Source: Mesostigma viride (Eukaryota > Streptophyta > Mesostigmatophyceae > Mesostigmatales > Mesostigmataceae). Taken from it: 64,000 bases of DNA. The translations under genes and the position numbers were made by a program. Shown here in pieces: positions 6,495-48,586 of this stretch (positions are counted from its first letter, which is position 1; each line of letters starts with the position of its first letter). Under the pieces are notes generated by a model. The model was not told the DNA's origin, ran no database searches, and saw only the letters and a program-made list of their open reading frames with translations. The DNA lies in the NCBI GenBank assembly GCA_009746045.1, contig RPFO01002220.1, forward strand, positions 1 to 64,000, in the 5' to 3' direction.

Positions 6495-6530
6495 GTAGGT
6501 GTTACGCACAAAGATGGGATTTTCTTGCGC

Positions 6531-11077
<4,547 letters not shown>

Positions 11078-20159: not shown

Positions 20160-21612
20160 CTGGTCCGCGCCAGGGTCCCAGATTTTGTTTTTGATCAGGC
20201 ACTCCGCAAAGGTGAAAACCATTTGCGTTCAGTACCGGGCCGCGGAAAACGCGGAAAAACGCGATCTGCAAATGAATCCGACCGGAATCGAACTGGGGAC
20301 CTCTCGCACCAATTTTGCTGACTATAGGACGGACGTCTCCGGTTACCATGGCATCGCCAACTTACACCTACAGTCATCCGCAAAAGTTCTCCTGTCCGGG
20401 GAGTGATGCAAGCCTTTCGGATTTGGTACTAGATAAATCACTCGAGATCTGTGTGTAGGAGTACTACACACGTGTCTGCACGCGAGACTTGTTCAGTCTC
20501 GCACCGTGAGACGGGCTGAACACGGCTGAATCCTTCTTTTTAGTAGAAGGGGGCGTAGCCGGTACTATCGAAATCAGCCAAGCGTATATTTGATCAGGCA
20601 CTCCGCAAAGGTGAAAACCATTTGCGTTCAGTACCGGGCCGCGGAAAACGCGGAAAAACGCGATCTGCAAATGAATCCGACCGGAATCGAACTGGGGACC
20701 TCTCGCACCAATTTTGCTGACTATAGGACGGACGTCTCCGGTTACCATGGCATCGCCAACTTACACCTACAGTCATCCGCAAAAGTTCTCCTGTCCGGGG
20801 AGTGATGCAAGCCTTTCGGATTTGGTACTAGATAAATCACTCGAGATCTGTGTGTAGGAGTACTACACACGTGTCTGCACGCGAGACTTGTTCAGTCTCG
20901 CACCGTGAGACGGGCTGAACACGGCTGAATCGTATATTCTGATCAGACACTCCGCAAAGGTGAAAACCTTTGCGTTCAGTGCCGGGCCGCGGAAAACGCG
21001 GAAAACGCGATCTGCAAATGAATCCGACCGGAATCGAACTGGGGACCTCTCGCACCAATTTTGCTGACTATAGGACGGACGTCTCCGGTTACCATGGCAT
21101 CGCCAACTTACACCTACAGTCATCCGCAAAAGTTCTCCTGTCCGGGGAGTGATGCAAGCCTTTCGGATTTGGTACTAGATAAATCACTCGAGATCTGTGT
21201 GTAGGAGTACTACACACGTGTCTGCACGCGAGACTTGTTCAGTCTCGCACCGTGAGACGGGCTGAACACGGCTGAATCCTTCTTTAGAAGGGGGCGTAGC
21301 CGGTACTATCGAAATCAGCCAAGCGTATATTCTGATCAGACACTCCGCAAAGGTGAAAACCTTTGCGTTCAGTGCCGGGCCGCGGAAAACGCGGAAAACG
21401 CGATCTGCAAATGAATCCGACCGGAATCGAACTGGGGACCTCTCGCACCAATTTTGCTGACTATAGGACGGACGTCTCCGGTTACCATGGCATCGCCAAC
21501 TTACACCTACAGTCATCCGCAAAAGTTCTCCTGTCCGGGGAGAGATGCAAGCCTTTCGGATTTGGTACTAGATAAATCACTCGAGATCTGTGTGTAGGAG
21601 TACTACACACGT
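20160..21612 (-). mobile_element. Four tandem tRNA-like SINE units
   Basis: Four copies of a 350-400-bp unit occur. The marker GATCTGCAAATGAATCCGAC recurs at 20263, 20662, 21009 and 21402 (spacings 399, 347, 393). On the minus strand each has AGTTCGATTCCGGTC, a good RNA polymerase III B box (GGTTCGANTCC type), about 45 bases after GTCCGTCCTATAGTCAGC, an A-box-like position. The 347-bp step lacks a 46-bp segment around CCTTCTTTAGAAGG. Each unit begins (minus strand) with the hairpin GTGTGTAGTACTCCTACACAC, which also follows the stop codon of the adjacent LINE. This is a candidate SINE family sharing sequence with the LINE 3' end. Confidence 0.6.
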
Positions 21613-21613
21613 G

Positions 21614-24600
21614 TCAGATTTTGTTTTGTTCATTTGCAACCATCCAGTAGCGTCGCATGCCGGAGTTCCATAGGTAAATGAAGCGTGAGAGAACCCCAGC
21701 TTTGTCGAAAACTGTGCGCCTATTGAACACCACATCGTTTCGCACCGTCCAGATTGTATATAACATGCATGTGCGGAGCCATATCCACGCTTGTTGTGAA
21801 AAGGTGAGCTCAAGGCCAGGGGTGCCAGTGATGCCAAAGATAATTGAGCGGGTAGACACCGGTATGATAGGCTCAGATGTCCAGGCTGCCCATAAACCAA
21901 TCAACCAGGTCCAAACTCCCTGGAGGTTACACCATAAAAATCGGTGTTCCACAGTTTCAGTGGGGTTGGTACATAAACAAGTAGCAGGGTGGTGAAATCG
22001 CCGGTGAAGGATCTCCCCTACCCCGATGGACCGGTGCATCAAGAGGTGTTGTACGTCGGTCGCGCGGCGATCAATCAACGGGTGGTCAACGGCGAGGGTG
22101 ATGTTGCGGACCCAGGTGTGGCCAGGCCACTCAGTAGCGCCCCAGCGTGTCCGTCCGGGGTGGAATTGATGGTTTTTATGCCGGAGCATTGTGTAGCCCC
22201 ACTCTGCCGTGTACTCGTAAAGGCCCTTTACAATTCTGCTGTCACCCTGATTTAGCACCCAGCCAAATTCCACTGGATCCAATGACAACATGTCCAGGCG
22301 AGTTGATCCCACATGTAGCCAAATAATAGCAGCGTCTGGAAGGTTGGGGTTGGGTTGGTATACACATGATTGTTCAAGGGACCAAGGTACAACCCGAATC
22401 CGGTGGCATAGCTGGGTGGGGAGGAACACCACTGCAGTTGTAAGTTGAGCCAAACAGCCATTGTGGCCGCTCAGCGGCGCCAGTAGTTGAACGTGCAGGG
22501 TTCCAAGGGGGAGTTCTGCGATCACCTTCCCCGAGCATGTTGCGGTCGTGCTGTATGGACAAAAGCAGCACCATTCACCAGCTTTATAGGGGGCACGGGG
22601 AGAAGTCATGAGTGTGTGCCAGCGTGGGGGTATGGCTTGTACTAGCGCGGCCCAGGCAGCATAAGTAGGCATATTGGGGACCCAGGCAGCCAGTTCGTTA
22701 TATGTTAAGAGGCGGTAGCAGTCACCGTGGAGAATATACAGGTGGAGAATAGTGGTTACAGGGTGGGGGGATGTTATGAAGCCTTCATAGGGGTTAGGGC
22801 CACTTAAGCATCCGAAGGGGCGATTAAGGGGGTTGAGGTATATATCATTAAAGAATAGGGGTTGGCGTGCAACTTCCTCACGTAGTGTGGGGAATAATAG
22901 GCGGTCGGGTTTAAGTGCCATAAAGCCTTGCCATATACGAGCCCAGTACCAAGGAAGACCTCTGGTGAGCTTAGGGGAGGGGAGGCGAGCAGTAAGCAGT
23001 GCGGCTCCAGAGTGCCAGGAAATACCATTGGAGTGATGAGTAAGACGTGAGAGGGTTACACGTGCCAGAAGACATCCAGGGTGTGTGTTGACACCAATGT
23101 GGGCAGAGATAACTTGTTTGGCATACACAGACCATAAACGCCATTGCATATTGTGTAAGCCTAGTCCTCCAAGAGGCCACGGCATAAAAGACATTGACTC
23201 TCTGATCCATCCGTGTACCTGGCGGCTGAGATCGCTCGATTTTTTCCAAACAAAGTTATGCCCCAGTCGTTGAATAAGAGACACGGTGTGTTCATCCGGT
23301 GGGTGGGCCTGACCGAAGTACAGCAACTTGGAGAACAGCAGCTGGTTCGTGACGAGGACCTTGCCCCGGAGGCTGAGGCGGTGTACGCCAGCCCAGCGGT
23401 TGGCCACCTGTTGTACACCAGTAAGTTTGCCCAGTTGTTGTGATTCGTCGTATAAAAAGGTTTTGACTTCCAATAACCTCCCTTCGGCTGTCCGACCGAT
23501 AGGGCAGTTATGCAAAAGGTGGTATCCTCCTGGCGGGACCCATGTCACCGCCAGGTTGGTAGGTTGGAGAGTCGGGTTGGTTGTTCTGCCAATATGCAAG
23601 CCCGTGGACTTTTGCACGTTGCAGCGTTGTTGGGAGGCGGTACAGTATGTAGATATATTGTCAAGCACAGCATCAACATCACGCAAGGAGGTGCAAATGT
23701 TAGTAGTGTCATCGGCGTAGGCAGTTTGAAACAGACCACGTGTGTGGTGAGGGATGGGGTAGCCTTGAATACGGCTGTCCTGTTGATGAAGAAAGAAGAG
23801 GCCAGCGTGAGCGAGCAAAAAGAGAAGGGGAGAGAGACAGTCGCCTTGTGGGAGGGAGCGTGTGCTATGGCCTATTTGGGATTTATGTCCATTAATTAGT
23901 AGGTGCCAAGTGAGGGATTTGATCATGCCTAGACTGACCTTAATAAGTTTAGGTCCAAAGCCAAGCCCGTGTAGTATAGCCTCGAGATATTTCCAGCATA
24001 TGCGGTCGAATGCTTTTTCAAAATCCCAAAATAAAATAAGACCTATAATATTGTTGCGCCATGCGTCATCAACAATGTCCATGATCATGGTGATGCTGTC
24101 GCTGATGTGTAGGTTGGACCTGAATCCAACTTGTTCCGGGCCGATCAGATTATCTAGTACACTATAGAAACGGCGTTGCAAGAGTTTGCTGGCTAGTTTG
24201 TAAGGGACTGTGAGCATGCGAATGGGTCTATAATTTTTCCAACTTGTTTTATCCCCTTTTTTGTGTAAGAGGATGAGGATTGTTTCCGACCACTGGCCCT
24301 CAACAGTTTCGGTGTTCCAGATTTCCAGGATGCACTGGTAGAGATCCCGGCCTATGAGGGGCCAGAACGTTTTAAAAAACTCTACTGGAAGGCCATCTGC
24401 ACCAGGTGCGCTACCGGTTTTGAGATGTTGAAGTGCTAGAGATGTTTCTTCCATAGTGGGGCTGGCGTCTAGTAGAGCTTGTTGTGACGGAGAGAGGCGG
24501 TGTGGAATAGCATCGAGGATTTTTTGTGTGGCTGTATTTGCAGAGGGGTCGGGTTCTGTCCGGAACAGGGTGGAGAAAAAAGCATGTCCAGATTGTAGGA

Positions 24601-25873
24601 TGTCTTGAGGGGTGGTATGGGTGCCAGTCTCGTCTGTAATTTCAGTGATGGTGGTTTGTGAGCGCGGGGGTGGGATAAATGCAAAGAATTCCTTATTCAT
24701 TCGTTCACCTTTGACATGCCACCATGTATTTTCCACATCTAGGGCTTCTGCGTGGCGTTCAAGGCGTAGCTTATCCATCTCAGTCTGGCACAATTGTAGT
24801 CGTGTTAACTCGTGCGGGGCTAGTCGGGGTTTGGATTGCAACATAGTGATAACTCGTTTGTAGTAATTGTAGTCTTTGCCTTTTATGCGGCGTTGTTCTA
24901 GATCGTATGCCTTAGAGGAGTCAAGGATGTGCGAGAGGCATGCTTGCATCCAGAGAGTAGTGCTTGGGTAGTCTACTTGCTTAGTTTTCCAGTCCCGCCA
25001 TTGTTCTCGGACTAGGGTGCGAAAGGCGGGGTCAGCCAGCAGCTTTTTATTGAGGCGAGGGACGCCTGGTCCTCTGGGGGGGCTGGAGTGATACACCATG
25101 GTGAGAAGGCAAGGGTAGTGATCAGAAAAAACTGTGGAGCGTATGACCTCTGCATGACAAATGAGGGATGCCCAAAAGGGTGACATAAATATGTAGTCTA
25201 GACGACTAGTGATGCGGGTGCCCTGACGAGTGGACTCGCGAGTATGCAGATGGTCGCGAGGTTTGATAACATCTTGTAGTGAGAGGCGTGTGAGGTGGTT
25301 GGCTAACGAGGTCGTCTCAAGCCCAAGGCCATGGTCTAGGTCAACATTAAAGTCACCCATCAGTATGACCTCATGAGATTGGTCCAGGAGGGGGGCAACC
25401 ATAGCAAACAAATCATCAAAAAATTTTATACGGTCAGAGTGTTCGTTGGGGGCATATACCGATATAATATAGCCAGTCTTACCGCCCCAGGAGATGCATT
25501 GCCGGGTCCAGCGACCCTGCCATGTGTTGGGAGCAGTATCTATGTGTTGGGCCCATGGGTGCAGTTGAACATGAGGGTGTGGCGGACGTCGATATTGTAG
25601 CAATGCAGTGCCTCCACTAGTCCCCCGTGCCCATGCCCATCTGCGTTCCATGTCTGGGGTGCGTCTTGTAAAGGATTGTAGTGCTTTGGCGTCTATTCCA
25701 GGAAATTTATGTTCTTGTAGGCCTACCCAGATTTCATGAGATGGGCCGACATAGGGTTGAGTGATACTGGCTAGTTGTGCCTGGAGCGCAGATATTTTAG
25801 ACTGTCCCTGGGTGCGAACACCATAAGTATTTAGACCCTGAACGTTCCAAGATATTATAGTAAGTTGACTCAT
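21614..25873 (-). CDS. LINE ORF2: endonuclease-reverse transcriptase
   Basis: The protein has 1,419 residues and is fully open. The N-terminus is an APE-type endonuclease (ISWNVQGLN near residue 8, LMGDFNVDL with GDFN at 173-176, later LDYIF and SDHYP), which nicks target DNA for target-primed reverse transcription. The reverse transcriptase follows: GSAPGADGLP, WKNYRPI, WDFEKAFDRI, LPQGDCLSP and the catalytic AYADDTTN (YADD about 719-722). The C-terminus has a zf-RVT-type knuckle, C-x-C-x7-H-x4-C (CLCTNPTETVEHRFLWC). No RNase H is evident. This layout fits L1-like or plant/algal (Zepp-like) LINEs. All catalytic motifs look intact. Confidence 0.95.
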   Translation of the reverse strand: MSQLTIISWNVQGLNTYGVRTQGQSKISALQAQLASITQPYVGPSHEIWVGLQEHKFPGIDAKALQSFTRRTPDMERRWAWARGTSGGTALLQYRRPPHPHVQLHPWAQHIDTAPNTWQGRWTRQCISWGGKTGYIISVYAPNEHSDRIKFFDDLFAMVAPLLDQSHEVILMGDFNVDLDHGLGLETTSLANHLTRLSLQDVIKPRDHLHTRESTRQGTRITSRLDYIFMSPFWASLICHAEVIRSTVFSDHYPCLLTMVYHSSPPRGPGVPRLNKKLLADPAFRTLVREQWRDWKTKQVDYPSTTLWMQACLSHILDSSKAYDLEQRRIKGKDYNYYKRVITMLQSKPRLAPHELTRLQLCQTEMDKLRLERHAEALDVENTWWHVKGERMNKEFFAFIPPPRSQTTITEITDETGTHTTPQDILQSGHAFFSTLFRTEPDPSANTATQKILDAIPHRLSPSQQALLDASPTMEETSLALQHLKTGSAPGADGLPVEFFKTFWPLIGRDLYQCILEIWNTETVEGQWSETILILLHKKGDKTSWKNYRPIRMLTVPYKLASKLLQRRFYSVLDNLIGPEQVGFRSNLHISDSITMIMDIVDDAWRNNIIGLILFWDFEKAFDRICWKYLEAILHGLGFGPKLIKVSLGMIKSLTWHLLINGHKSQIGHSTRSLPQGDCLSPLLFLLAHAGLFFLHQQDSRIQGYPIPHHTRGLFQTAYADDTTNICTSLRDVDAVLDNISTYCTASQQRCNVQKSTGLHIGRTTNPTLQPTNLAVTWVPPGGYHLLHNCPIGRTAEGRLLEVKTFLYDESQQLGKLTGVQQVANRWAGVHRLSLRGKVLVTNQLLFSKLLYFGQAHPPDEHTVSLIQRLGHNFVWKKSSDLSRQVHGWIRESMSFMPWPLGGLGLHNMQWRLWSVYAKQVISAHIGVNTHPGCLLARVTLSRLTHHSNGISWHSGAALLTARLPSPKLTRGLPWYWARIWQGFMALKPDRLLFPTLREEVARQPLFFNDIYLNPLNRPFGCLSGPNPYEGFITSPHPVTTILHLYILHGDCYRLLTYNELAAWVPNMPTYAAWAALVQAIPPRWHTLMTSPRAPYKAGEWCCFCPYSTTATCSGKVIAELPLGTLHVQLLAPLSGHNGCLAQLTTAVVFLPTQLCHRIRVVPWSLEQSCVYQPNPNLPDAAIIWLHVGSTRLDMLSLDPVEFGWVLNQGDSRIVKGLYEYTAEWGYTMLRHKNHQFHPGRTRWGATEWPGHTWVRNITLAVDHPLIDRRATDVQHLLMHRSIGVGEILHRRFHHPATCLCTNPTETVEHRFLWCNLQGVWTWLIGLWAAWTSEPIIPVSTRSIIFGITGTPGLELTFSQQAWIWLRTCMLYTIWTVRNDVVFNRRTVFDKAGVLSRFIYLWNSGMRRYWMVANEQNKI

Positions 25874-26297
25874 AAGTAAGTAGAAGGAGAGAGAATGCAG
25901 AAGGATGGAGTGGTTTTACCGGATTAGGATACATTTTTTTGTTTAGGATACATTTGATGCACTGTGCAGTTTTCAGATGTGTTTGAGGGGGTTGATTGCG
26001 CCTAACATGCATTTTATTGAAGCAATGAGTTTCCCAAGATATACATGATATAAACTAAGACAATTGACCCATTAAGGCAATGAGACAACATCAATAAGAC
26101 AACATATGCCAATTGAATAAGACAACTCAACCTTACAGGACGTTGGGCCATCATACGTCCGGAATAATTGTCTCACTTATTACATAACCAAACTTTTTGA
26201 GGGATCGCCATGGTTGCATGGTTTCCACACATGCGCCCTGCACTCATGTGCATCAAAGGTGTTGCGTCTAGTGCCAACTCAGTGTCAAAGAACTGAT

Positions 26298-26417
26298 TCA
26301 ATCATATTTCCCGTGTGGCCATGAAGGCCCACATGAGTTAAACATGGCCGAGAGTGATTGCATCATCCTTCTTGGCGACATCGGTCTTGACGACGTCGAT
26401 GGGGAAGACGGCAGCAC
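26298..26417 (-). CDS. Last exon of the polyQ gene
   Basis: On the minus strand CTTTTGTTCACATGCAG precedes a 120-base open segment of exactly 39 codons plus TGA. It reads VLPSSPSTSSRPMSPRRMM and ends PHGKYD. Phase 0 matches the donor at 26845. Reading the first exon onward without splicing gives only a Gly/Trp repeat from a C-rich minisatellite, so splicing is more likely. Confidence 0.5.
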   Translation of the reverse strand: MLPSSPSTSSRPMSPRRMMQSLSAMFNSCGPSWPHGKYD

Positions 26418-26489
26418 CTGCATGTGAACAAAAGAATCCATGAATTGTGGCATCCAAAGGCAACAACATATTAGCATCCCATTGAACAC

Positions 26490-26838
26490 GCAGCCACGCT
26501 GACCCGGCCATCCAGCCGCCCACGCAGCCACAAAGCCAGCCAGCCACGCAGTGACGCACCCACCCAGCCACACATCCACGCATCCACGCACCCGGCACCC
26601 CCCCCAGCCAGCCAGCCACGCAGCCACGCAGCCACGCAGCCACGCAGCAGCGCAGCCACGCAGCCACGCACCCTCCTTTCCAGCCAAGCAGCCACGCAGT
26701 CACACAGTCAACCCCCCCATCCCCCCCCCCCCCCACCCCCCACCCCCCACCCCACCCCCCACCCCACCCCCCACCCCACCCACCCACCCCACCCACCCAC
26801 CCCACCCACCCACCCCACCCACTCAACACTACACGAAT
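26490..26838. repeat. CCACGCAG and CCCACC minisatellites in an intron
   Basis: The first part repeats CAGCCACGCAGCCACGCAGC (about 26500-26710). The second repeats CCCACCCCCCACCCC and CCCACCCACCCC (about 26715-26825). Both fall inside the proposed intron 26418-26845 of the minus-strand gene (donor GTGAGT). The apparent Gly-Trp-Val and Ala-Trp-Leu reading frames across them are treated as non-coding. Confidence 0.7.
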
Positions 26839-26845
26839 GACTCAC

Positions 26846-29110
<2,265 letters not shown>

Positions 29111-29239
29111 AGTTCCCGTGGCTAGTGCCCATCACCTTCCACCTTGAGCGAAGTCACGAATTCAAGCGCGAAGTGCATTTGAATCAAGCGGGAACTGGGT
29201 GACACTGCTTGAAGACGTGCAGCTCCAAGGCATGCAAAT
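29111..29239. other. 5' flank of the polyQ gene
   Basis: This short unique segment lies between the minus-strand start and the 149-bp repeat. No TATA box is obvious. Confidence 0.3.
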
Positions 29240-30290
29240 GATGCAATGTATCAAAGATACGATACGCAAAGTTCAGGTGTTCAGGTGAAGCCGTGAAGAC
29301 GTGAAGCCGTGAAGCCGTGAAGACGTGGTGAAGACAGGTGAAGACGTGGTGAAGACGTGAAGACGTGAAGACGTGAAGACGTGAAGACGTGAAGACACGA
29401 TACGGCAAGTTCAGGTGAAGTTCAGGTGTTCAGGTGAAGCCGTGAAGACGTGAAGACGTGAAGCCGTGAAGCCGTGGTGAAGACAGGTGAAGACGCGGTG
29501 AAGACGTGAAGACGTGAAGACGTGAAGACGTGAAGACGTGAAGACACGATACGGCAAGTTCAGGTGAAGTTCAGGTGTTCAGGTGAAGCCGTGAAGACGT
29601 GAAGCCGTGAAGCCGTGAAGACGTGGTGAAGACAGGTGAAGACGCGGTGAAGACGTGAAGACGTGAAGACGTGAAGACGTGAAGACGTGAAGACACGATA
29701 CGGCAAGTTCAGGTGAAGTTCAGGTGTTCAGGTGAAGCCGTGAAGACGTGAAGCCGTGAAGCCGTGAAGACGTGGTGAAGACAGGTGAAGACGCGGTGAA
29801 GACGTGAAGACGTGAAGACGTGAAGACGTGAAGACGTGAAGACACGATACGGCAAGTTCAGGTGAAGTTCAGGTGTTCAGGTGAAGCCGTGAAGACGTGA
29901 AGCCGTGAAGCCGTGAAGACGTGGTGAAGACAGGTGAAGACGCGGTGAAGACGTGAAGACGTGAAGACGTGAAGACGTGAAGACGTGAAGACACGATACG
30001 GCAAGTTCAGGTGAAGTTCAGGTGTTCAGGTGAAGCCGTGAAGACGTGAAGCCGTGAAGCCGTGAAGACGTGGTGAAGACAGGTGAAGACGCGGTGAAGA
30101 CGTGAAGACGTGAAGACGTGAAGACGTGAAGACGTGAAGACACGATACGGCAAGTTCAGGTGAAGTTCAGGTGTTCAGGTGAAGCCGTGAAGACGTGAAG
30201 CCGTGAAGCCGTGAAGACGTGGTGAAGACAGGTGAAGACGCGGTGAAGACGTGAAGACGTGAAGACGTGAAGACGTGAAGACAAGTTGCA
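29240..30290. repeat. 149-bp higher-order tandem repeat, ~7 units
   Basis: The marker TACGGCAAGTTCAGGTGAAG recurs at 29401, 29550, 29699, 29848, 29997 and 30146, exactly 149 bases apart. Each unit is built from 9-bp GTGAAGACG/GTGAAGCCG words. Units 2-6 look identical or nearly so, which indicates recent amplification. The array fills the gap between the two divergent genes of the transposon. The period is close to the length of nucleosomal DNA, which may be chance. Confidence 0.9.
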
Positions 30291-30329
30291 GCACTCAGCC
30301 GCAGCAGTCGCACGCAGGTAGAAACGATA

Positions 30330-30794
30330 ATTTGTTTGAATCTGTCAAGACCCCATCGAATGTAAAACAGGTTTTTCGTAAAGAAATCCGATGTGTGGGC
30401 GGGCTTTACATAGTTGCGATTTCTGGCCTGCGATTTCTGGCCTGCGCTGGTTGTCTCTTTTATAGTGCTTCTGCCCAAGCACTACCGGCTGTAAAACAGT
30501 ATACTTCTTGAAGAAATCAGTTGGGGCTTTGTTGGGCGTCACATTTGACCGGTGGGCGGAGTTTCCTGCTTCTGTGAAGGCGCCATCGAATGTAGATCAG
30601 TAGATTTTCTAAAGAAATCTGAGGTGTGGGCGGGGCCTTTATTGCTTGTGTCCATCCACCACCGGATGTAGAACAGTAGACTTATTGAAGAAAACAGTTT
30701 GGGGCTTTGTTGGGCGCCACATTTGAGCGGTGGGCGGGGTTTCTTGCTTCTGTCCAAGCACCACCGGGTGTAATACAGTAGATTTCCTATTAAC
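30330..30794 (+). promoter_or_regulatory. Promoter-proximal GC-box repeats of the transposase gene
   Basis: About five diverged direct repeats share GTGGGCGGGG, CTTCTGTCCAAGCACCACCG and TGTAAAACAGTAGA...TTGAAGAAATC. Spacings are about 50-130 bases, ending 10 bases before the ATG at 30795. The repeated GGGCGG core at a fixed place before a start codon suggests transcription factor binding. In transposons such arrays can also bind transposase. Neither role is shown. Confidence 0.45.
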
Positions 30795-33700
30795 ATGGAT
30801 GAAGAATGGGATGTGCCAGACCTGGTGGATTCGGATGCGAGTTCTGAAGCTAGTTGGGGCGTAGATTCTGACGGCTCTGACGACGACCTGCTTCACACGG
30901 AAATGGGGCCCGGCACGTCTTCCTCTCGAGCGAAGCGCAGTGGGAAGAAAGATGGCGCCCGGCTTCTCGCCTCCAAATTGAAGTCCGTTGACAAGGACAT
31001 CGCCAAGGCCAGGAAGTGCGGTCCGACTTGTGGGGAGCATTGCCTCGAGAAGGTGGGCACCTTACTTACCGATACCAGGTCGTGGACTGCCTTTCGAGAG
31101 TACCTGTACAACCAAACGGACCAGCAGCGCATGGCCTCCCTTTGCGACGTGATCCGGTCGGCCGGCGTGGGCAACATCGAGGTAGAATCCCCTGCCGACG
31201 GTGGCCGTTACAAGAAGTACATCATTACCGGCCCTTTACACGTGGACGTGGTGATTGCGGGGTGCATGTACACCGTCACCGGTTGTGCATCTGCCATCCG
31301 GAAGATGGCCGGCGTTACCCGGGCGACTTGGAACAATCTGGTGGCGTCGGTCGTGTCGGCGAAAGAGTATTTCCTGACCGTGCATCCCAACGACCTAGCG
31401 ACTTTCGGTGTTGGTCTGGAGCACGCACCACCTGAGCGTGATGCTCGGGGGCGTTCGGAGGTTGGCGAACACGCAGCAATGTGGATGCACGAGTTGGTGC
31501 AGCAGATCGCAGACCATGACCCGACTCATGCTGGCGTTGTCTTCATGGACGTCATGTCCATCAAGGAGATGCACGCCATGTACGTTGAAGACGTGGTGGC
31601 AGAAGCGGGGGAAGGGGCCAAGGTGCTAGGCTACAACGCATTCTACCGCATCTGGCGCACCTACTGCAAAGGCGACTACTTCCCAGGGCAGAGGAGCCCG
31701 AAGGTGGTGGTATGCCCGCACAACAAGAGCACCGGTCACTGCGCGGACTGCGTGGAACTGCGCATGCGGCGCCGCGGTGCTTCAACTGAGGCACAACGGC
31801 AGTACGTCGACAACCAAATCAAGCAGCATGTCGCTCTGGCCTGGTTTACCCGCCAGAACTATTGGTTGAGGCGCGAGCTTGCCTGCGCGATGGTGGCCGC
31901 TATGTTGACGGCCATTTTGTCGATCAACCTCGACAAGCTGGATCACGCCAAGACATACTGGCCGAAGCTGGTGGGGGGGCCCGACTCATGGGGCAGCTAT
32001 GCAGGTGGCATGATGCCGTTCTCGCTCTTCTGTGCGGCCGTCCATGGGTACAAGGCGATGTGGTTCATCGTTCTCGCATGGGTCCTCATGACCGACAACC
32101 TCTCCGGCAGTGTCACCGTCACGATGCTGATGCACATCCTGGCGCAGTTGATGAGGGACCAGCCATGGAGGAGGGCGGGGCTGCCGCACATGCCCAGGTG
32201 TTTGTGCCTGCAACTGGACGGTGGGAGTGAAAACCGGAATCACACCGTCTTACTGTTTGCATGGTGGCTCGTACACGTTGGCTTCTTCGACGTCGTCGAA
32301 ATGCACCGCATGCTCGTGGGCCACACGCACGCCGACCCAGATCAGAAATTCGGCGTGCTTGTGGCCTACATGAGACACGCTGTGGCGGGGGGGCCTAGCT
32401 TCGTGCACAAGTACCCAACTTTGGAGAGCTGGGTGGCGGCCATAGAAGAGGCATTCCGTCAGCCTAGTGGTGCAGCTGCGAACTGCAACTCGACCGTCCC
32501 CGCTGGCACGGAGGTCAAGGTATTGGGGGTCGCTTACGATGTCAGGAACTTTCTCACTCCGTTGCAGCGCGAGTCGTTTGCCGGTTGGTGCAGCACAGTA
32601 GATTGGATGACCGGTAGGGAGGATCAGGTTATCAAGGTCACCAGGGTGCGTGGTGATGTCGTGCAGCCTGCGTGCAGCGAGGCGCAGCCGGCGCACGGAG
32701 GGGCGGCGCCATCGGTGCGCGGCGGGGCGGCAGCGGCGGCGCAGCCGGCACGCGGCGGGGCGGGGCAGTCAGCGGGCAGCGGGGCGGCGCTGCCGGTGCG
32801 CGGCGGGGCGGGGCAGTCGACGGGCGGCGGGGCAGGGCCGTCGACGGGCGGCGGGCCAGCGGTGCTGCCGGCGCGCGCGGGCGGCGGGGCGGGGCAGTCG
32901 GCGCGCGGGGGGCCAGCGGCGCTGCCGGCGCGCGTGGGCGGCGGGGCGGGGCTGTCGACGGGCGGCGGGGCGGGGCAGTCGACGGGCGGCGGGGCAGGGC
33001 CGTCGGCGTGCGGGGGGCCAGCGGTGCTGCCGGCGCGCGTGGGCGGCGGGGCGGGGCTGTCGACGGGCGGCGGGGCGGGGCAGTCGACGGGCGGCGGGGC
33101 AGGGCCGTCGGCGTGCGGGGGGCCAGCGGTGCTGCCGGCGCGCGTGGGCGGCGGGGCGGGGCTGTCGACGGGCGGCGGGGCGGGGCAGTCGGCGTGCGGG
33201 GGGCCAGCGGTGCTGCCGGCGCGCGTGGGCGGCGGGGCGGGGCTGTCGACGGGCGGCGTGGCGGGGCAGTCAGCGCGCGGGGGGCCAGCGGCGCTGCCGG
33301 CGCGCGTGGGCGGCGGGGCGGGGCTGTCGACGGGCGGCGGGGCGGGGCAGTCGACGGGCGGCGTGGCGGGGCGGTCGGCGTGCGGGGGGCCAGCGGCGCT
33401 GCCGGCGCGCGTGGGCGGCGGGGCGGGGCTGTCGACGGGCGGCGGGGCGGGGCAGTCGACGGGCGGCGGGGCAGGGCGGTCGGCGTGCGGGGGGCCAGCG
33501 GCGCTGCCGGCGCGCGTGGGCGGCGGGGCGGGGCTGTCGACGGGCGGCGGGGCGGGGCAGTCGACGGGCGGCGGGGCAGGGCCGTCGGCGCGCGGGGGGC
33601 CAGCGGCGCTGCCGGCGCGCGTGGGCGGCGGGGCGGGGCTGTCGACGGGCGGCGGGGCGGGGCAGTCGACGGGCGGGGGGCCAGCGGTGCTGCCGGCGCG

Positions 33701-35965
33701 CGTGGGCGGCGGGGCGGGGCTGTCGACGGGCGGCGGGGCGGGGCAGTCGGCGTGCGGGGGGCCAGCGGTGCTGCCGGCGCGCGTGGGCGGCGGGGCGGGG
33801 CTGTCGACGGGCGGCGGGGCGGGGCCGTCGGCGCGCGGGGGGCCAGCGGCGCTGCCGGCGCGCGTGGGCGGCGGGGCGGGGCTGTCGACGGGCGGCGTGG
33901 CGGGGCAGTCGGCGCGCGGGGGCCAGCGGCGCTGCCGGCGCGCGTGGGCGCCGGGGCGGGGCTGTCGACGGGCGGCGGGGCGGGGCAGTCGACGGGCGGC
34001 GGGGCAGGGCGGTCGGCGTGCGGGGGGCCAGCGGCGCTGCCGGCGCGCGTGGGCGGCGGGGCGGGGCTGTCAACGGGCGGCGGGGCGGGGCAGTCGACGG
34101 GCGGCGGGGCAGGGCCGTCGGCGTGCGGGGGGCCAGCGGCGCTGCCGGCGCGCGTGGGCGGCGGGCCGGCGCAGCTGGCATGCGGCGGGGCGGGGCTGTC
34201 GACGGGCGGCGGGGCGGGGCAGTCGACGGGCGGCGGGGCAGGGCGGTCGGCGTGCGGGGGGCCAGCGGCGCTGCCGGCGCGCGTGGGCGGCGGGGCGGGG
34301 CTGTCGACGGGCGGCGGGGCGGGGCAGTCGACGGGCGGCGGGGCGGGGCAGCCGGCGCGCGGCGGGCCGGAGGCGCAGCCGGCGGGCGGCGGAGCGGCAC
34401 AGCCGGTGCCTGAAAAACGCGGTCGCTCAATGAAGGTGCACCACGCCGTCTTCTTCCAGGTACAGGGCAACGCAGAGACCTGGTTGTCCTACCGGACCAC
34501 GGAGTCCCAAAAGACGCCGTGGCAGCCCGCGGGGACTCGACAGGAAGGCGCGCCACGGTGCGGGAAGGCGATGACACAGCCTTACAAGTTTGATGCGGAG
34601 GGGCGGCCGCTGTTTGGCGTCCGACTTGTGGATCCAGACCGCATTCCGATGTTGCAGGACACCCCAGCCTTCGCACCATTGAACATGGAGTTTCTGGGGA
34701 AGGAGCTGGAGTCGATCAAAACAAGGGTCGAGAAGTTGCCCCATGGCATCTGGCAGTGGTACTTTCCGCCCGACACCATCAAGCCAAACGAGGCCTTTTT
34801 CGCAAAAGTCCCACATGCCCCTGAGGAGGTGCCTGAGGAGTGGCGCCCTTTGCCGTGGCCATCTCGCGCGGACATCTCCGCCCTGCGTGAGCACGATGCA
34901 GCGCCTGAACCACCACCGACGCAAGAAGAGCACTTCATGGCGTTGGTCGACGCAGAGGCGGTGCGCGTCACCCCGCTGGTAGACCGAGTTCTTCATGATG
35001 GCCACACACAGCAGGAATGGGCGGCAGAAGACAGGGCCATGACAGCCAAGGTCGCTTACTTGAAGCGCATGCAAGGCGTTGAGAAAGGCTCCGCTGTTCT
35101 ATACTGGCACCCTTCAGCTGGTATTCTCTGCAACTCGAAGCTCACGTGGACTCCAGTCCTCTTTGGCATCATCAAGGAGGTGGTTGCGAAGGAGGATGGC
35201 GGCCAACCTTCTATTGAGCTCTTTGTATACCGCGCTAAGCATTTGCGTGACACGTGGCACCCGTGGAACCCAGACATTGCGCAATGGCCCCATCCGCCAA
35301 CCACTGCGGCGCACACGGTGATCATCACCGCGTCAGACCTCGTCTTGACACAAGTGGTGGGCAAGCGAGGTCAGCCGCCCCATGCAGTCTCCTTGGGTGC
35401 GAACAAAAAGCTCACCAAGGAGTGCCTAAAGGCGCTGAAGGAGGTGCCCTATGACGCGGAACACCCGGTCGTGAAGTGGCAAGATGCTGAATGCTCGAAG
35501 GGCATCGTCGGCATGGCGAAGGCATGCTGGGAAGGCATAAGGCTGCAGGTCAAGAGTGGCAGCCGCAACCTCGTAGGGCAAGTCGTGTGTCATTGGGCGT
35601 CGGAGCGTGTGACATCCGCGGACGGTCGCACCGAAAGCCGGGACGGCAGGTACCATGGTCGTGTCGCTGTTGTCGACACGCAAAACGACATGGTAGCCAT
35701 GTACTGGGGTGCCCGTTGGGAGGAGGACGCGGTTTCTTGTGTGCCTCTCCACGAGCTGGAGGCACAGATCTGCGGGTGCCCCGGTGTGGTCGTCCCTGCG
35801 TTGCAAGCGCCGGATATCACCCTGGCCGAGGCTCGATTGCGCGAGATGGTTCCACCCAGCGACGATGTGGCGGAGAACAACAACGCAGGCGCCTCCCGGC
35901 GTCGGAAGCGAGCGCTCATCCTTGCCGATGACGATGACGACGACGACGACGACGACGACTGCTGA
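30795..35965 (+). CDS. DDE-type transposase (DUF7869-like), one frameshift
   Basis: Starts MDEEWDVPDLVDSDASSEAS. Residues about 60-80 include KCGPTCGEHC, and about 310-320 have CPHNKSTGHCADC, possible zinc sites. The core reads VVFMDVMSIKE (Asp 252), LQLDGGSENRNH (Asp 475) and VGHTHADPDQKFG (Asp 514/516). The GHTHxDxDQ motif is characteristic of DUF7869 proteins, and the D...D...D/E order fits an RNase H-fold transposase. A Gly/Ala-rich minisatellite region follows (32690-34400). One repeat copy has five G instead of six at 33918-33922. That shifts the first frame to a stop at 34433, while the C-terminal 500 residues (from EKRGRSMKVHHAVF) continue in the other frame, ending in a poly-Asp tract and TGA. 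Whole length would be about 1,720 residues. Confidence 0.7.
32690..34400 (+). repeat. ~105-bp GC-rich coding minisatellite
   Basis: About fifteen units are built from GTCGACGGGCGGCGGGGCGG, CGGGGGGCCAGCGG and TGCTGCCGGCGCGCGTGGGC. They encode repeats such as GGGAGLSTGGGAGQSTGGG with PAALPARVG. Units vary in length by one or two 15-30-bp modules. All frames of both strands are open, so the minus-strand Pro/Arg-rich frames are shadows. Confidence 0.9.
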
Positions 35966-37133
35966 AGCGCGAGCAGCGGTTGTTGTCATTGAGCTGCTCA
36001 TGTGCTGCTGCTGCTGCTGCTGCTGCTGTGCTGCCATGCTACTGTTGCTGCATTGCTGCCGTGCTGCTGTTGTGCTGTTGTGCTGATGTGTTGCTGCATT
36101 GCTGCCGTGCCGCTGATGTATTGCTGTCGTGCTGCTGCCGTGCTGCTGTGTTGATGCACTGCTGCATTACGGCCGTGCTGCTGAGCTACAGTTGTGCTGC
36201 TGCTGTGCTACGGTCATGCTGCTGCTGTGTTGCTGGGCTGATGTGTTGTTGCATTGATGTAGTGGCTATTGTTCCGCTACTACAATTTGCTACTGATGCC
36301 GCTGCTGGTGCTTTTTTGCATGGCAGTGCCCGCTATGTTCACACCACTGTTGCCGCGGTTGGTATCGCGTGATTTCCACCGGTTGTGCGTTGACATGTGT
36401 TACTCATGCATTTCCCGCTATATTTGGTAGCACGCGGTTTCGCGTTAGTTAGGTGCAGACAGCTGCATGTAGACAAACATCTTGTTTAAGTCGGTCAATT
36501 AACGGTTCTTGACGCATCATGGTCCAAGTCGACCGACCTGTAGGGACCAGTAGAGCAATTGTCTAGGAGAAAGAGCGTGATCGCTGCAGAAGCCGCGTGG
36601 CAGCCGTGGCTGTACCTGTAGTACGACCTGCATATATATGGATACTGTATTTGGATACTGGGTTGTTTATCAATTCTGGTTTTAATTTATTTAGTGTACC
36701 TGGTGTTGGCATGCCAACTCAGTGCTAAACTACTTTATGCACAATGATGCAACTTGATGCTATAGTGACGTGCCACGATGTAACTTTATTAACTTCACCA
36801 TTAGTCATGGGGTCAATAGGATTGCTCATTATGCCATGTTAACATGAACCATGGGTTACGTAATAGTGAAAACAGTAATCATGATGCTCCACTTGAAGTC
36901 TCCAACATGGTCATGTTTGGAATTTTATTGATCATATTTACAATATATGAAAAGAGACAACAAACGTGGAAGCATGGCACGCCGAGGCCGATAATATATG
37001 TGTGAAATATGAAAAGAGACAACATCTTTGGCAAGCATGATCATATCATGCTTGCCAAACATATGAATGATATCGACCATGTCCAGAAACCATGTTTGCC
37101 AATGGTGCATTTAGGATACATTTGAAGCTGTGC
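35966..37133. other. 3' region of the transposon
   Basis: After the transposase stop comes a degenerate CTG-rich stretch (35998-36260), then unique AT-rich DNA. The right subterminal part holds two copies of GAAAAGAGACAACA (about 36948, 37011) and a 15-bp-stem palindrome TTTGGCAAGCATGAT/ATCATGCTTGCCAAA at 37027-37059. No additional gene is supported. Confidence 0.5.
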
Positions 37134-37183
37134 AAATGTATCCTAATCCGGTAAAACCACCCATGCAAGCGTTGGCGTACCTC

Positions 37184-38809
37184 TCATGCCTTGGAAGACG
37201 ATGCACGCGCCCGCTTGGTTGCGTCGGCTGTGGTGACCGCTGGCTGCGCCCGTTTGGCCGAGGGGTCGTCCTGCGCTGGCGCTTCCTCGAGAGAGCCAGT
37301 TGAGGAGGGCATCATGTCGAGATCATGGGGTAGGGCCGGCAGCCGTGCCGCCGGATCAGACGGTGACGGCTGGTTGTGCGCTCCCGGGGGATCCACGTAG
37401 TTCGCCCCGGGGACGCGTCGGAGGATGCTCTTGAGTTGGGCCGACGTAACCCCGATGGATTTCAGTGCGGCCTCCTTGTTGGTCCAGACCAAGCGAGCCC
37501 CGGCTGTTGCGAAGTCTCCTTCCTTGGATGTGAGGCATGGCACTAGTGTTTTCAGGATATAGATGGTGCCAGCCCTGGGGCGGTAGTCAATTGAAGCGTC
37601 TAACATGATGGACAGCCGGCGCTCGTTTCGCGAGACTTGTACAAGCGTGTCGAGCTGGTTACGTTTGAGAAAGTCCTCCGTTTCCGTCCAGATGTCAAGT
37701 GGCCGCCCTGTCCTAGCCCCCATGGGCTTGTGCATCAACAAGCTGGGGCTGTTATCCGCAGCGACGGTGCAGAGTACCTTGTTGGGTTGATTGGCCGAGG
37801 TGATGTATGGGTAGAGGTGGCTGCCCACCGAGGCGTCCTTGGGGATGTCTAGTTGTTGCAGATCCCATTCGCCGTAGCCGCCCATGATGTAGCGGTTGAT
37901 GAGCACGTGCGGTGGGACCGCCTCTGGGGGCGCCGCTGGGTTCTGCTCGGTTTGCAGGCCACCGAGCCGCTGTTGCTTGGCAGCTGCAAGCCTGAGGGCC
38001 TCTGGGCACGCGTTGGATAAATGTTCACGCGAGCACATGCAGGTGATACATAGCAGCGGTTCCATGTTGATTTGGGTAGTCACCCGAGAGTCGGCCAGCT
38101 TAGCAATGTCGAACTCCATGATGGGGATTTGCAGAATGTCCGGTAGGCAGCGTGGCGAGGTGCCGGAATAGCCGCCGGGGCACCCGTAGATCTGCCCAGT
38201 GCCGTTCAGTCCGAGCCCTTGGTCCGGTTCGAACCGGGGCGTGTAGCTGCAGACAATGCTGTAGGCTTGGTAGGAGTTGCCACCACCCGTGCGAGGAAGG
38301 TCCTCCACCTTGTTGGGCAGGTTCAACCCATGAAGCGATCCGTAGGGCTTAAAGATTTCATTCAGGGTCTCTCGAGTCCGGATCCGGCCAGGGACGTTGT
38401 GCAGGGTCAAGTGGTATGTCCCCGCCAGGTCTGTATGGCGCCAATAGCGTACCGGGATAAATGTTCCGCCCACGGTGACCCCAGGGTGGGAGTTAACCGT
38501 TGTGAGGGTGTCCAGGACCGATTTGGCTGTCTCCGGAGTAAAGAAACAGATCTCAATGTTGGGGTGGCCCTTGAGACCCTGAATCACCTGGCCTGAACGC
38601 CCTGCCACGGTAGCGGCGGCTGCACGTTTATCCGCTTGAGAAAGCTGCTTGCCCTGGACCTCGAGGACGAGCATGCGTTTGCTCATATTAGCGTAGCTGG
38701 AGGCCAACACTGGAGTCCATGGGATTTTTCCCGCCGCCAGCGCTTGTAGGTCACCCTGGGGTTGTGCCAGCCGAAGGCGTTCCTCCCAGGAGGGATCGGG
38801 GTTTGCCAT
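37184..38809 (-). CDS. LINE ORF1: nucleic-acid-binding (gag-like) protein
   Basis: The protein has 541 residues, starting MANPDPSWEERLRLAQPQGD. ORF1 proteins of LINEs bind element RNA and chaperone it with ORF2. Residues about 90-250 (IEICFFTPETAKSVLDTL; YHLTLHNVPGRIRTRETLNE) resemble an RRM-like, transposase-22-type fold. A zinc knuckle-like motif C-x2-C-x5-H-x4-C (CITCMCSREHLSNAC) lies near residue 260. The C-terminus is Ala/Lys/Arg-rich (KRAQPAVTTADATKRARASS). Assignment rests on the knuckle, the matching strand, and the 59-bp spacing to ORF2 once the nested transposon is removed. Confidence 0.75.
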   Translation of the reverse strand: MANPDPSWEERLRLAQPQGDLQALAAGKIPWTPVLASSYANMSKRMLVLEVQGKQLSQADKRAAAATVAGRSGQVIQGLKGHPNIEICFFTPETAKSVLDTLTTVNSHPGVTVGGTFIPVRYWRHTDLAGTYHLTLHNVPGRIRTRETLNEIFKPYGSLHGLNLPNKVEDLPRTGGGNSYQAYSIVCSYTPRFEPDQGLGLNGTGQIYGCPGGYSGTSPRCLPDILQIPIMEFDIAKLADSRVTTQINMEPLLCITCMCSREHLSNACPEALRLAAAKQQRLGGLQTEQNPAAPPEAVPPHVLINRYIMGGYGEWDLQQLDIPKDASVGSHLYPYITSANQPNKVLCTVAADNSPSLLMHKPMGARTGRPLDIWTETEDFLKRNQLDTLVQVSRNERRLSIMLDASIDYRPRAGTIYILKTLVPCLTSKEGDFATAGARLVWTNKEAALKSIGVTSAQLKSILRRVPGANYVDPPGAHNQPSPSDPAARLPALPHDLDMMPSSTGSLEEAPAQDDPSAKRAQPAVTTADATKRARASSSKA

Positions 38810-40945: not shown

Positions 40946-41999
40946 GTATGTTGATTTCCTGGATTGCTGAGTTAACGCACACCGCTGTAACAATGCTGCA
41001 GCCTTGTACCTCGACAAATGTATCTGTTTTCACACATGCATAGTATCATGGGTTGCACCAGCTATTGGCAGGCCATGCACTTGTAGACTCAGCACATGGT
41101 AATGGCTGACTTTCAGTTGCTGTTCTTCTTCATTGTTCAACTTGCTTTTTTGTGTGGCACGCTGAGATTTTGTGTTAACGGTGTCCAAGCGACCTCACCT
41201 GTAATGGGTTGAGGTTCGCTAAACTAGCTGTTATGGGTTGTCAGTTGCTTTTTATGTCAAGATGAGTAATACCCTGGCCCCATTATGATTAAGGATTACA
41301 ATTCATGATAGCTCCCCATTTTGTTTTCTGTTCATTTCGCTGGGCACCTCTGTAAGTTTGTTGGATTGTGGTAGATGCGAGCTCCTTTTCATCTGCTTCG
41401 TCGCAAAGAACCATTTTGACACTAATACAAATTAGATACTCTCATGGCATGATCATTATCGCGTCTGATAGGAACACCTATGTCATCTGTGTATTGGACA
41501 TCTTTTGACACCAATACAAAACCATCATGGGTAGCGGTACCACGCACAAAATATTGCCTTCGTTGCCATGGCAGGGCAGATGGCCTTGGCTGCACACAGC
41601 ATGCCAAGTACACTGTGGTTGTGACTGCCCATGTTACTGAGCCACACGCGACCTATCCTAATTCAGACCACCTGCTCTTAAACACCCCCACTCCTGCCTT
41701 AATATGCTGTCACAGCCATGGCATGATGAACTGTGTTTTGCCCACCCAATGGAGGCATGGGACTAAATGATGGACGCCGTACTACGTGTACTGACTTGTC
41801 CATCACGCGCCTGGCCTGGACATAGCTTGCGTAAGCCAGTTCCATTCCGGCCAACTGAAACTGCTGAATGTTTGCGAGGGCAACCGCGTGCCTACTCCAT
41901 GGCAGCTACGCATTCAAAGGAACATTACCTGATTGTACCCACTTGTCTCATCATCATCGGCTGTGCACCTCTACCTCCTCCCCCCCCCTTTCCCACCAG
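40946..41999 (+). other. Intron 1 of the DUF3638 gene (1,054 bp)
   Basis: The intron starts GTATGTTGATTTCC and ends with a strong polypyrimidine tract and TTTCCCACCAG. Internal short ORFs are ignored. No repeat or mobile element is seen. Confidence 0.6.
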
Positions 42000-44900
42000 G
42001 TCCTCCTGAGCCACGTGCTGCTGCTGTCACGAGACGCCAGCACGCATGGCTTTGCTTCCTCGCCCCTCTCCCCCAAGCAGCTCGTGGCGGTGGCAGAAGC
42101 CAGCATGTGCCTGTGGCTGCTGGAACGCCAGCTGGCGCTGCTGACGCCTGAGACCACGACACCATCATCCGTCACCGTGGTTGTGGACATGCTGGAACAT
42201 ACGGCACTGCTGGGCACTCAGCTGTCAGATTGCGTTTCAGGAAATTTCCAGCCTGCGCCTGCGATGGTGGCAACGGCTGACCATGTTGATGGCTTGCCTG
42301 TCGAACCATTAGACGTTGTCATGGCAAGTCCAACGGGCAGCAGTTCTGGGCATGGTGGTGATGCAGATGTCAGAAGCGGCATCGAGAGGTTTGCAGAGCG
42401 GCTCCAGTCAGCCCGGCTGAAACTAGAAGCATTGCTCCAGGCCAGGGAGCAGATGCGAGCATTACCGTACCAGCTGCCCGCCGAGGAATCTGTGGCAGCG
42501 CCGCGGGTGGAAGAGCCCCGCGTGGTGCTTCCAGCAGCGCCGATGCTGGCTGCCAGTAGCTACTCAGACATACTCGCGGTGGCCAATCAGAACCTGGGCG
42601 GGCTGCCCATCCTTCTCCCGCACGCGTCAGTTCGCTTGGCCCTATCTTGGATGAAACATTCCTGGGCCAAGGTGACCGACACGACCAAAGAGCTGTGGTC
42701 CCAGCTGGCACTGCAGGGGCTCGAGCAGGCGGTGTTTGGTTTTGCCGTGGATGCGAGCGCCAGCGATGGGCCGGGGTGGGTGGATCCTGATGTCACACCG
42801 GGGGAGGTCATGGCCCTGGTGGACAACTATCGGCGCGTGCTGGCAGGGGTGTCTGGCGAGTCGTTTGCGCGGATGCAAGTGGAGGTGCGCAGCCGAGAGA
42901 CGCTGATGGTGTGGGTGGCATTCTGTGTTGCGGATGCCAGGGGATGCGTCGAGTACCCATTGCTGGGGGAGTTTGGCGTGGCGTTGCGATGGGAGGATCT
43001 GCGGCACCTCGTGCTGGGGGACAGGCTGGCGGTGGATGCAGCGCTGGCTGTGGGTGATTACTTGCGTTCGCGGACAGAGATGGGATTGGAAGTGTTCACT
43101 CTGCAAGATGCCGGTGGTGGGTGGCAGATTAACACGATGGCCATGGCAGCAGAGATGGCAGAAGAGAGCAGCTTGAGCCAGCACATCGCTTCCCTGTGGC
43201 GTGCGGAGCAGGAGGATGCGGAGATGCGGGTGCAAGGGCACTGGCAGGAGGTGTTGCGGAAGCAAGCGCTAGTGGTGAAGCTGAGGGAGGAGCTGGCGGA
43301 TCTTGAGAGGAAGCTGGAGGGCTTGCAGAGTGAGCTTCTGAGTGCAACGAATGCCCACGCTGCAGCTTGTGCGCTCTTGAAGGCGTACCCCCATCAGCAA
43401 TTGCGTAAAGGCGGTTTGCAACCATGCTGCCCTCACCATAGCCAGTTCCACGACTCCTGCGCATGGAAGGCGGAGCGTGTTGCGCGTAAAGCTGCGGTCG
43501 ATGCGGCACATAGAATGGTCAGCAGCGCACGGGTTGCAGAGAATATTTGTAACTCCAGGGTGCGAGCGAAGAGGGCAGAGCTCACGGAGGCCAAGAGATC
43601 ACCCGCACCCGTGTTCCAGCCGCTGCCCTCGGATGAGTCAAAAGCCAAGGCGCTGCTCTTCCTGATAAACATGCCCGAGGTGCTGCGGCAGGTGGCACAG
43701 CTGGCATTTACGGCGCAGGAGATGCTGCTGCCGTGCCGTCGGGGCAACGAGGGTAGGGGCGCGGACATCGCTGCCCTGGTCCAAGAGGTGCCTTTTGCAT
43801 TCGAGTGGCATGCGTACTACAACGGCCACCAGGTGTGCGAGTACCACACCCCGGCAGCGACCCGCAAAGGCAGCACAGGAATGGTACTGCTGGGCAGTCG
43901 ACAGCGACCACCGACAACAGTCGGCCCGGCCGATGTGGAGCAATGTCTGCACAAGCACGACGGGATATGGCACCCGGATGGCCTGTCCCCGACCCTGGGC
44001 TGGCAAGGGTGTGGGTGTGCACCAGCTGTCCCGTATGGCCTGTACAACCCCTTTGCCGCCATCCCGCATCAGATGACCGTGGATTACTTCACGGAGCTGC
44101 TGCCAAGCCGCCCTGGCAGCTCGCTCCAGTGGGCGATGCCCCAATACGGCACGGATAACACGGACACGACACGTGGCAACATCGCAATCGCGGAGCAGAT
44201 ATCCCGACCGGCGTGGATGTCCAAGCCGCAGTACCTGGCGTTCGGGGCACTGCGGGCATACCCCAACCAGCAGGTGCGCAAGATGTGCGTCGCGCTGAGG
44301 GACAAGCTGTTGCCGCTGGACCGTCCCGCCGTGCACACGCTGCTGCGGATGGCGGCATACCACCTCGGGGAGCTGGACGTGAACGTCAGTGATGGCGGCA
44401 GCACCTCACTAGCGCGATGGTTTCATTCTAGTAATGCGACCGAGCAGGTCTTCCCCCGCTGGCACACCGACCTGTGGCTGGGTGGCGCCGCGGATGCCTT
44501 GTGCGAGGAGCTGCAAGCATTACTTGAGGAGCTGCGGCCGGCGCCCCGGCGACACAGCGAGCTGATGATACTGGCGGAGGTGGCAGGGTACCTTGGGGAG
44601 AGGCATGAGGCATGCCTCGTGGTGGCCCGGGGATTCGGCGAGGTCGCGCGCAAGTGGGGCGACGAGCTGGAGGGTCAGCTGGCGGAGTCCAGCGCATCAG
44701 CCGCTGCGATATTGAAGCGAGAGGGTGGGCAGAAGCCTGAGCTGCGGGATAGCGACAGTACCGCTCGTTCCCGCCAGGGGCTCTTCTACATGTACGCGTT
44801 GTTGTGCTACCGTTCGGGGCCACTCTCGGTGGCGGATGCCAGAAGCATGGTCGCGCTGATGGTGCTGGTATCCTACATGAAGGTGTTCGAGGATGGAGGT

Positions 44901-47900: not shown

Positions 47901-48586
47901 CGGCCGAGCGATGATGCCACACGCCGTCTGTTAGCACAACTTGACAACCGTGACGTCATCGACATCCTTGACGAGAGCGACGACCTGCTGCACCACCGGC
48001 GGGAGCTGGTCTATGCGTGCGGGGCGCCCGTGCCGCTGCCCAACGGGCCCAACCGCTGGACGGCCATGCAGGCGCTGCTGCTGGTGCTCCAACAGGGCAT
48101 TAGGAGCAAGGCAGAGGTCTGGCAGGTGCTCACGCGACCAGGCGTGTGCGTCGGCCTGGAAGCAGACAAGAGCTCTGATTCAGAAGGGCTTGCGGCAGTG
48201 ACAGGTGCCAGTAATAGCGGCAAGGTGGGGCACTTGGCTGGCTGCTCCCATGGGGAGTTCATCCCAGTGCGCCTTGTGCCAGGTGACGCGCTGACCGCCT
48301 GCTTGCCGGAGCTGCGCGTGTGCCTGCTGGGGGGTCTCATGGGCGACCCGCCGTATGAGCTGTCATGGCTGGGTCGGGGTGATGTCGTGAGGGATGCCAG
48401 AATCATGGAGTTTGTGACGGACCCTGCACCAGAGGACGTGTCGGCCCTCCTCGCGTCGATACTACCAGTGGGCAGTCTCCATGAAGACGAGCGTGCGAGT
48501 TTGCTCATGCTGCGGGGCCTGCTCGCGGGAAACTTGCTGTTCCACGAGCTGCAGAAGAGGCACCTGGTTGAGTACGGCGTGGACAG
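42000..48586 (+). CDS. DUF3638/DUF3645 giant protein, main exon
   Basis: This single exon has 6,587 bases (about 2,196 residues). Helical and coiled-coil segments come first (KLREELADLERKLEGLQSEL), then a poly-Gly insert (about 44900-44935). The family core is near the end: VQLNMGEGKTRVILPM (P-loop-like GEGKT, encoded at about 47586), then DILDESDDLLHHRRELVYAC. These match the conserved DUF3638 plan of huge eukaryotic proteins that databases often label ubiquitin hydrolase; that activity is not evident from motifs seen here. The exon ends with ELQKRHLVEYGVD and two bases of an Arg codon at GACAG-GTGGGC. Reading past this donor gives a stop at 48633-48635. Confidence 0.8.

Follow-up and report, generated by a model that had tools for sequence, protein, structure and literature searches.

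The window analysed here is a stretch of 64,000 nt from Mesostigma viride (assembly GCA_009746045.1, contig RPFO01002220.1, positions 1–64,000), in a eukaryotic assembly of 439.9 Mb and 2,243 contigs. It contains a putative DNA transposon of 11,255 bp (25908..37162), the limits of which follow from its terminal inverted repeats (TIRs), from a conserved start over 36 flanks of other copies, and from comparison with a second full-length copy, C1868. Two divergent genes lie inside it, a partner open reading frame (ORF) on the minus strand (26708–29110) and a transposase candidate with the Pfam domain DUF7869 on the plus strand (30795–34433), as an earlier note on this DNA had described.

The perfect 27-bp inverted arms given in that note are present at 25910–25936 and 37134–37160, and with up to three mismatches allowed, a 25-base core of the arms is found in the window at these two sites and no others (0 in 100 shuffles). 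In 36 distinct flanks from other copies, identity outside the GGTTTTACC core reaches 4 bp further, with G at position −4 in 34 of 36, G or A at −3 in 35, G at −2 in all 36 and T at −1 in 35, followed by mixed bases from −5 outward; the tip of a single end (C2, L046) is degenerate. Because bases outside the 27-bp arms are conserved, the element is taken to start 2 bp further out, at the limits 25908–37162. The TIRs are then 29 bp long with one mismatch and comprise a left TIR at 25908..25936 (plus strand; inverted-repeat and flank comparison), with the tip GAGTGG, which is GGGTGG in most copies read, and a right TIR at 37134..37162 (minus strand; inverted-repeat and C1868 comparison), with the tip CCACCC, the general form of the tips being GRGTGG...CCACYC. 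A second copy of TTTAGGATACATTTGA lies inside the left end (25942..25959, plus strand) and another inside the right end (37110..37133, plus strand), where it is inverted relative to the TIR; both were recognised by eye and are putative transposase-binding repeats.

An exact end pattern, to which a non-T base six positions outward was added, was found at 413 places in the assembly (203 forward and 210 reverse) and the reversed control pattern at none in either orientation, which rules out that the ends lack further copies or are an unrelated local repeat. When 201 bp of the left end were used as query, all 40 scored places (of 277 candidates) were 100% identical to it. Among 100 listed of the 413 places, plus and minus ends no more than 40 kb apart formed 26 pairs, which were 8.8–15.6 kb long except for one of 29.5 kb, with many at about 9.1–9.3 and 11.2 kb. 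Identical 3-bp target site duplications flanked 22 of the 26 pairs (mean 1.9 and maximum 7 in 1,000 shuffles), and no pair matched over 4, 5 or 6 bp. The window copy is itself flanked by ATG (25905..25907 and 37163..37165, from comparison with the C1868 copy). Together with C1868 (CAT), C1690 (GAG) and C1579 (CAT; right tip CCACGG), it is one of four agreeing copies among five additional ones, the fifth being C1756, with discordant flanks (GAA and AAT). As C998, fetched with its right TIR, was already among the 26 pairs, it was counted once, and the total comes to 26 of 31 copies read at both ends.

The plus-strand gene is the transposase candidate. In the window, its first part (30795..34433) encodes 1,212 aa up to a stop after a frame shift, and it continues in another frame (32672–35965), while the C1868 copy has a single frame of 1,722 aa. 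The break, which is absent from the earlier note, lies within a GC-rich in-gene tandem repeat (32735..34397, plus strand). The DUF7869 match (PF25273, E = 2.4e-16, 60.4 bits, cut-off 26) covers residues 437–589 (32103..32561, plus strand), upstream of this repeat. Beyond it, the C-terminal part (34409..35965, plus strand) has no Pfam match of its own and is conserved in a second DUF7869 family, named E, whose protein it matches by tblastn at 7e-31 and 6e-10; family E lacks the repeat there, so that in the window it stands as an insertion between conserved parts. The weaker of the two tblastn matches marks the homologue (35570..35944, plus strand) of the Tudor-like end in family E. That family-E end matches the PTM/DIR17 Tudor model PF21743 below its cut-off (E = 4.8e-4); no PF21743 match was found in the window's own C-terminal end in the Pfam scan.

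In a genome search for DUF7869, all 150 scored places (of 275 candidates) exceeded the Pfam cut-off, compared with 0 of 14 control genomes. All 30 loci cut out from this search belonged to the window family. Further places, marked off by recurring scores and frame lengths of their own, point to at least four additional families (D, E, F and G), from which one member each of D, F and G, two of E and one of G′, a near relative of G, were read; the representatives of D, F, G and G′ were likewise above the cut-off. All homologues compared come from the M. viride assembly. The earlier note named D252, D475 and the motif GHTHADPDQ, all of which are present in the plus-strand protein. Across six aligned DUF7869 representatives, five acidic residues do not vary: D242, D380, D475, D514 and D516. 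D252 is replaced by Glu in three of the six, and D380, being invariant where D252 varies, is the better candidate for the first catalytic Asp. RNase H-like transposases have an Asp on the first strand as their first acid, with the second acid coming after the fourth strand and the third on a helix further along. D380 (31932..31934, plus strand), which follows a hydrophobic run, D475 in LQLDGGSEN (32217..32219, plus strand), and D514 or D516 in GHTHADPDQ (32334..32342, plus strand) would match this order as first, second and third acid, and the DUF7869 protein may adopt an RNase H fold.

Several weaker signals around the candidate were set aside. Pfam matches to T4SS_CagC, Las1, Rep_1B, UvrD_C and Dishevelled were judged to be chance, as were the only two matches in an NCBIfam search with six members. 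The pattern GHTHxDxDQ occurs in at least 118 stretches of genome contigs, and the 97 ORFs with the motif, including one viral locus, gave no phmmer match to the transposase at E ≤ 10 and were also taken as chance. The motif pattern occurred at one place in viral contigs; searches of these contigs by protein and by alignment yielded no confirmed relative, and four pattern-matching stretches failed tblastn.

The partner ORF (26708..29110, minus strand) encodes 800 aa in the window and 761 aa in the C1868 copy, with a Cys-rich N-terminus, a coiled-coil-like stretch identified by eye, and polyglutamine (polyQ). Its N-terminal region carries a PHD-like zinc motif (C18, C24, C48xxxC52xxxxHxxC60, WxC77xxC80; 28871..29059, minus strand), and a 21-bp CTG-type array (27083..27674, minus strand) encodes a polyQ/FPQQQQQ tail. 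Within residues 1–470, no Pfam match to an enzyme at E ≤ 1 and no Myb/SANT match was found, the only hit being a weak one to PHD. A tandem array of 6.8 copies of a 149-bp unit (29269..30282) separates the divergent genes.

The C1868 copy is 11,267 bp long and differs from the window copy outside repeats by one substitution, in the left tip, the remaining differences being confined to simple or GC-rich repeats. Two nearly identical full-length copies at different loci indicate recent movement. When the right-hand stretches of seven other copies were compared, the transposase frame was open to the C-terminal end in three (C1868, C1690 and C1579); C1106 is open across the GC-rich array and broken further on, C1756 has a frame shift as in the window, C998 shows a rearrangement, and C1857 is cut short within the array. 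The broken frame of the otherwise nearly intact window copy is either genuine or due to misassembly of the repeat. The C998 copy (C998:3021338-3036716, 15.4 kb) contains a second partial transposase copy and is rearranged or nested.

Family E repeats this organisation with other ends. Its transposase is 33% identical to that of the window, and its end sequences differ from those of the window family, with GAG...CTC tips; the ends GAGGGGATTCATARGTGTTTGCTCAATTT occur exactly at 136 forward and 134 reverse places in the genome, compared with none for the reversed control. An exact 3-bp duplication flanks nine of ten pairs hand-picked from 100 listed places, and with the C1 copy (9,397 bp, CGG on both sides) the total is 10 of 11. 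A minus-strand partner region is again divergent from the transposase and contains a PHD-like stretch (C-x4-H-x2-C ... W-x-C-x2-C), and an ORF in another frame encodes a coiled-coil-like stretch, recognised by eye, followed by polyQ. In both copies read, the transposase is spread over ORFs of 323, 753 and 227 residues, each in a different frame, and the gene probably contains introns. An 84-bp stretch beside the ORF split (L199:2256-2338) lies in opposite orientation in L200, the copies being otherwise about 99.7–99.9% identical, and is possibly a palindromic intron-like insert. The 270 exact family-E ends compare with 19 family-E gene places (60 scored of 990 candidates), and many elements may be non-autonomous; examples such as C128:14681-20221, C335:5886236-5891552 and C224:873193-891642 measure 5.3–18.4 kb and could hold other cargo. 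Long subterminal arrays with a unit of about 173 bp, inverted between the ends, were observed in family E (L208, L209, L215 and L216; C1 and C1391 copies). A related further family with a 603-aa frame is 39% identical to family E and has 15 same-score places (60 scored of 990 candidates), including C224:3146668, C313, C469, C559, C631 and C1040.

The sequences show that the ends are defined, occur exactly at hundreds of places and are flanked by 3-bp target duplications, that two complete copies are nearly identical, and that in two families the DUF7869 gene is accompanied by a divergent partner region of the PHD-like/polyQ kind. The proposal of a TIR transposon with two genes, one of them encoding a DUF7869 transposase candidate, has held up. 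The DUF7869 protein very probably moves the element. We consider it about 80% probable that the element is a DNA (class II) transposon with the DUF7869 protein as its transposase and belongs to a TIR superfamily that appears to be undescribed, as judged against published descriptions and Pfam, with Repbase outside the comparison. In the mechanism we propose, the DUF7869 protein would bind the ends, and perhaps also the subterminal TTTAGGATACATTTGA repeats, pair them, and cut with an RNase H-like DDD site formed by D380, D475 and either D514 or D516. Joining of the ends to the target would be staggered by 3 bp, and repair of this stagger would leave the 3-bp duplication. More speculatively, the Tudor-like C-terminus and the PHD-like/polyQ partner may bind chromatin and aid assembly or target choice.

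A number of observations weigh against this interpretation. An AlphaFold model of residues 340–600, made from a single sequence, consisted entirely of helices with a mean predicted local distance difference test score of 40.6 and was discarded. PDB sequence searches returned one, two and one matches, all at E = 0.5 or worse, and a PDB profile search with an alignment that left out three window-family copies (L205, L206 and L207) gave no match at E ≤ 10, RAG1 included. No transposase domain other than DUF7869 was present among the Pfam matches to the element proteins. The duplication is missing in five of the 31 window-family pairs and in one of the 11 family-E pairs, on C224, and when ten further copies were fetched with a guessed right side, the right TIR was present in five and not found in the other five (L010, L014, L016, L022 and L026). 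The PHD match is below the cut-off in both partners (E = 0.023 in the window and 0.015 in family E), the similarity between these partners reaches only E = 0.086, and the PHD-like stretch and polyQ ORF of family E are in different frames and assumed to form a single gene. Movement by cut-and-paste rather than copy-out is likewise a reading of the sequence.

There is an appreciable chance, somewhat short of even, that a catalogue such as Repbase already lists the element under the name of a known superfamily, with no link to Pfam DUF7869; this would be compatible with the interpretation above. With its Pfam entry, the family is already known at the sequence level. Literature searches, the coverage of which lacks most subscription journals, found no paper naming DUF7869, none joining transposase with GHTHEDIDQ, and none combining transposon or transposase, PHD finger, Tudor and terminal inverted repeats. 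None of the superfamily features compared from PMC12730594, PMC10045372 and PMC4455052, the last being the source of the Repbase superfamily list, fits the element. KDZ (Zisupton) elements make an 8-bp duplication (PMC12730594), unlike the 3 bp found here. The CACTA/EnSpm relatives (CMCT) have duplications of 2 to 5 bp, 3-bp ones among them, mostly 5'-CA..TG tips, and C(2)C and H(3-4)H motifs between the second and third acid (PMC12730594). The tips here are GRG...CYC instead. With D475 taken as the second acid and D514/D516 as the third, the intervening stretch contains no Cys and no C(2)C/H(3-4)H arrangement. No match at E ≤ 1 was obtained to an ISAzo13-type transposase, for which we take Pfam to include a model, and this separates the element from Zator. 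The 3-bp duplication is shared with Zator (PMC10045372).

That the element is a very divergent PIF/Harbinger (PHIS) member, with the same mechanism and a transposase beyond Pfam detection, seems improbable. The run D516-Q-K-F-G resembles what we take to be the E..FG motif of PIF/Harbinger and is counted for this assignment, as is a mild T..A preference in the duplications, in which T is the first base at 42 and A the final base at 39 of 100 ends, both ends of pairs being counted and hence non-independent, with TAA/TTA as the commonest duplications (17 of 100 ends). The 3-bp duplication, the G-rich, GGG-type tips and the presence of two genes also agree with the published description (PMC2213677). 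However, no DDE match besides DUF7869, IS5-like ones included, was obtained at E ≤ 1, the target is not restricted to TTA/TAA, the majority of duplications being others, the partner is PHD-like/polyQ and has no Myb/SANT match within the residues scanned, and the TIRs of 27–29 bp are longer than the 14–25 bp given in PMC2213677.

It is very improbable that DUF7869 is a passenger or accessory, with catalysis supplied by the partner or by another element in trans: the transposase role is deduced from sequence, the excess of family-E ends over gene places, among the 60 of 990 candidates scored, suggests that action in trans is common, and a family-E partner ORF has a UvrD_C match in its polyQ/low-complexity half (E = 0.011, below cut-off, taken as chance), but the window partner lacks an enzyme hit in Pfam at E ≤ 1 over residues 1–470, the DUF7869 Asp residues are invariant across the six representatives, and long open frames are retained in many copies.

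If DUF7869 is the transposase domain, a Pfam entry with no stated function, found here within elements whose ends and target duplications are defined, gains a probable job. The ends, the 3-bp duplication, the four invariant Asp residues and the recurring partner can serve as signatures that allow DUF7869 to be annotated wherever it is found and tested directly in a transposition assay, and as the copies look young, a working protein pair may persist in the genome. RAG1/RAG2, as in ProtoRAG, combines a catalytic protein with a partner that has a PHD-type finger, and ProtoRAG duplications are 5 bp. A catalytic protein with a PHD-type partner is common to both systems by analogy only, and the 3-bp duplication and the PDB profile search differ from what a RAG element would give. 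We tentatively suggest, as the less likely outcome, that DUF7869 provides the catalysis in an as yet undescribed superfamily defined by GRG...CYC tips and 3-bp duplications, in which the Tudor-like transposase end and the PHD-like partner act as chromatin readers and tie target choice to histone marks in a RAG1/RAG2-like manner. If these modules are real, the element would be another natural transposase with a PHD-type partner, besides RAG.

The earlier note placed the element exactly between the two ORFs of a long interspersed nuclear element (LINE). On one side, a minus-strand ORF with endonuclease (PF03372) and reverse transcriptase (PF00078) domains (21614..25873) does adjoin the element; the ORF across from it (37184..38809, minus strand) has no Pfam match and is presumed to be LINE ORF1 by position only. 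The arrangement fits an insertion that split a LINE. Downstream of the reverse transcriptase ORF, four direct repeats of 300 nt, 81–100% identical and spaced 347–399 bp apart, occupy 20190–21628. Elsewhere in the window, all six frames stay open over about 4.5–5 kb at 6110–11161, which suggests a large tandem repeat, and a 2,255-aa ORF at 41868–48635 contains DUF3638 (PF12340, E = 6.4e-62) and is possibly a host gene.

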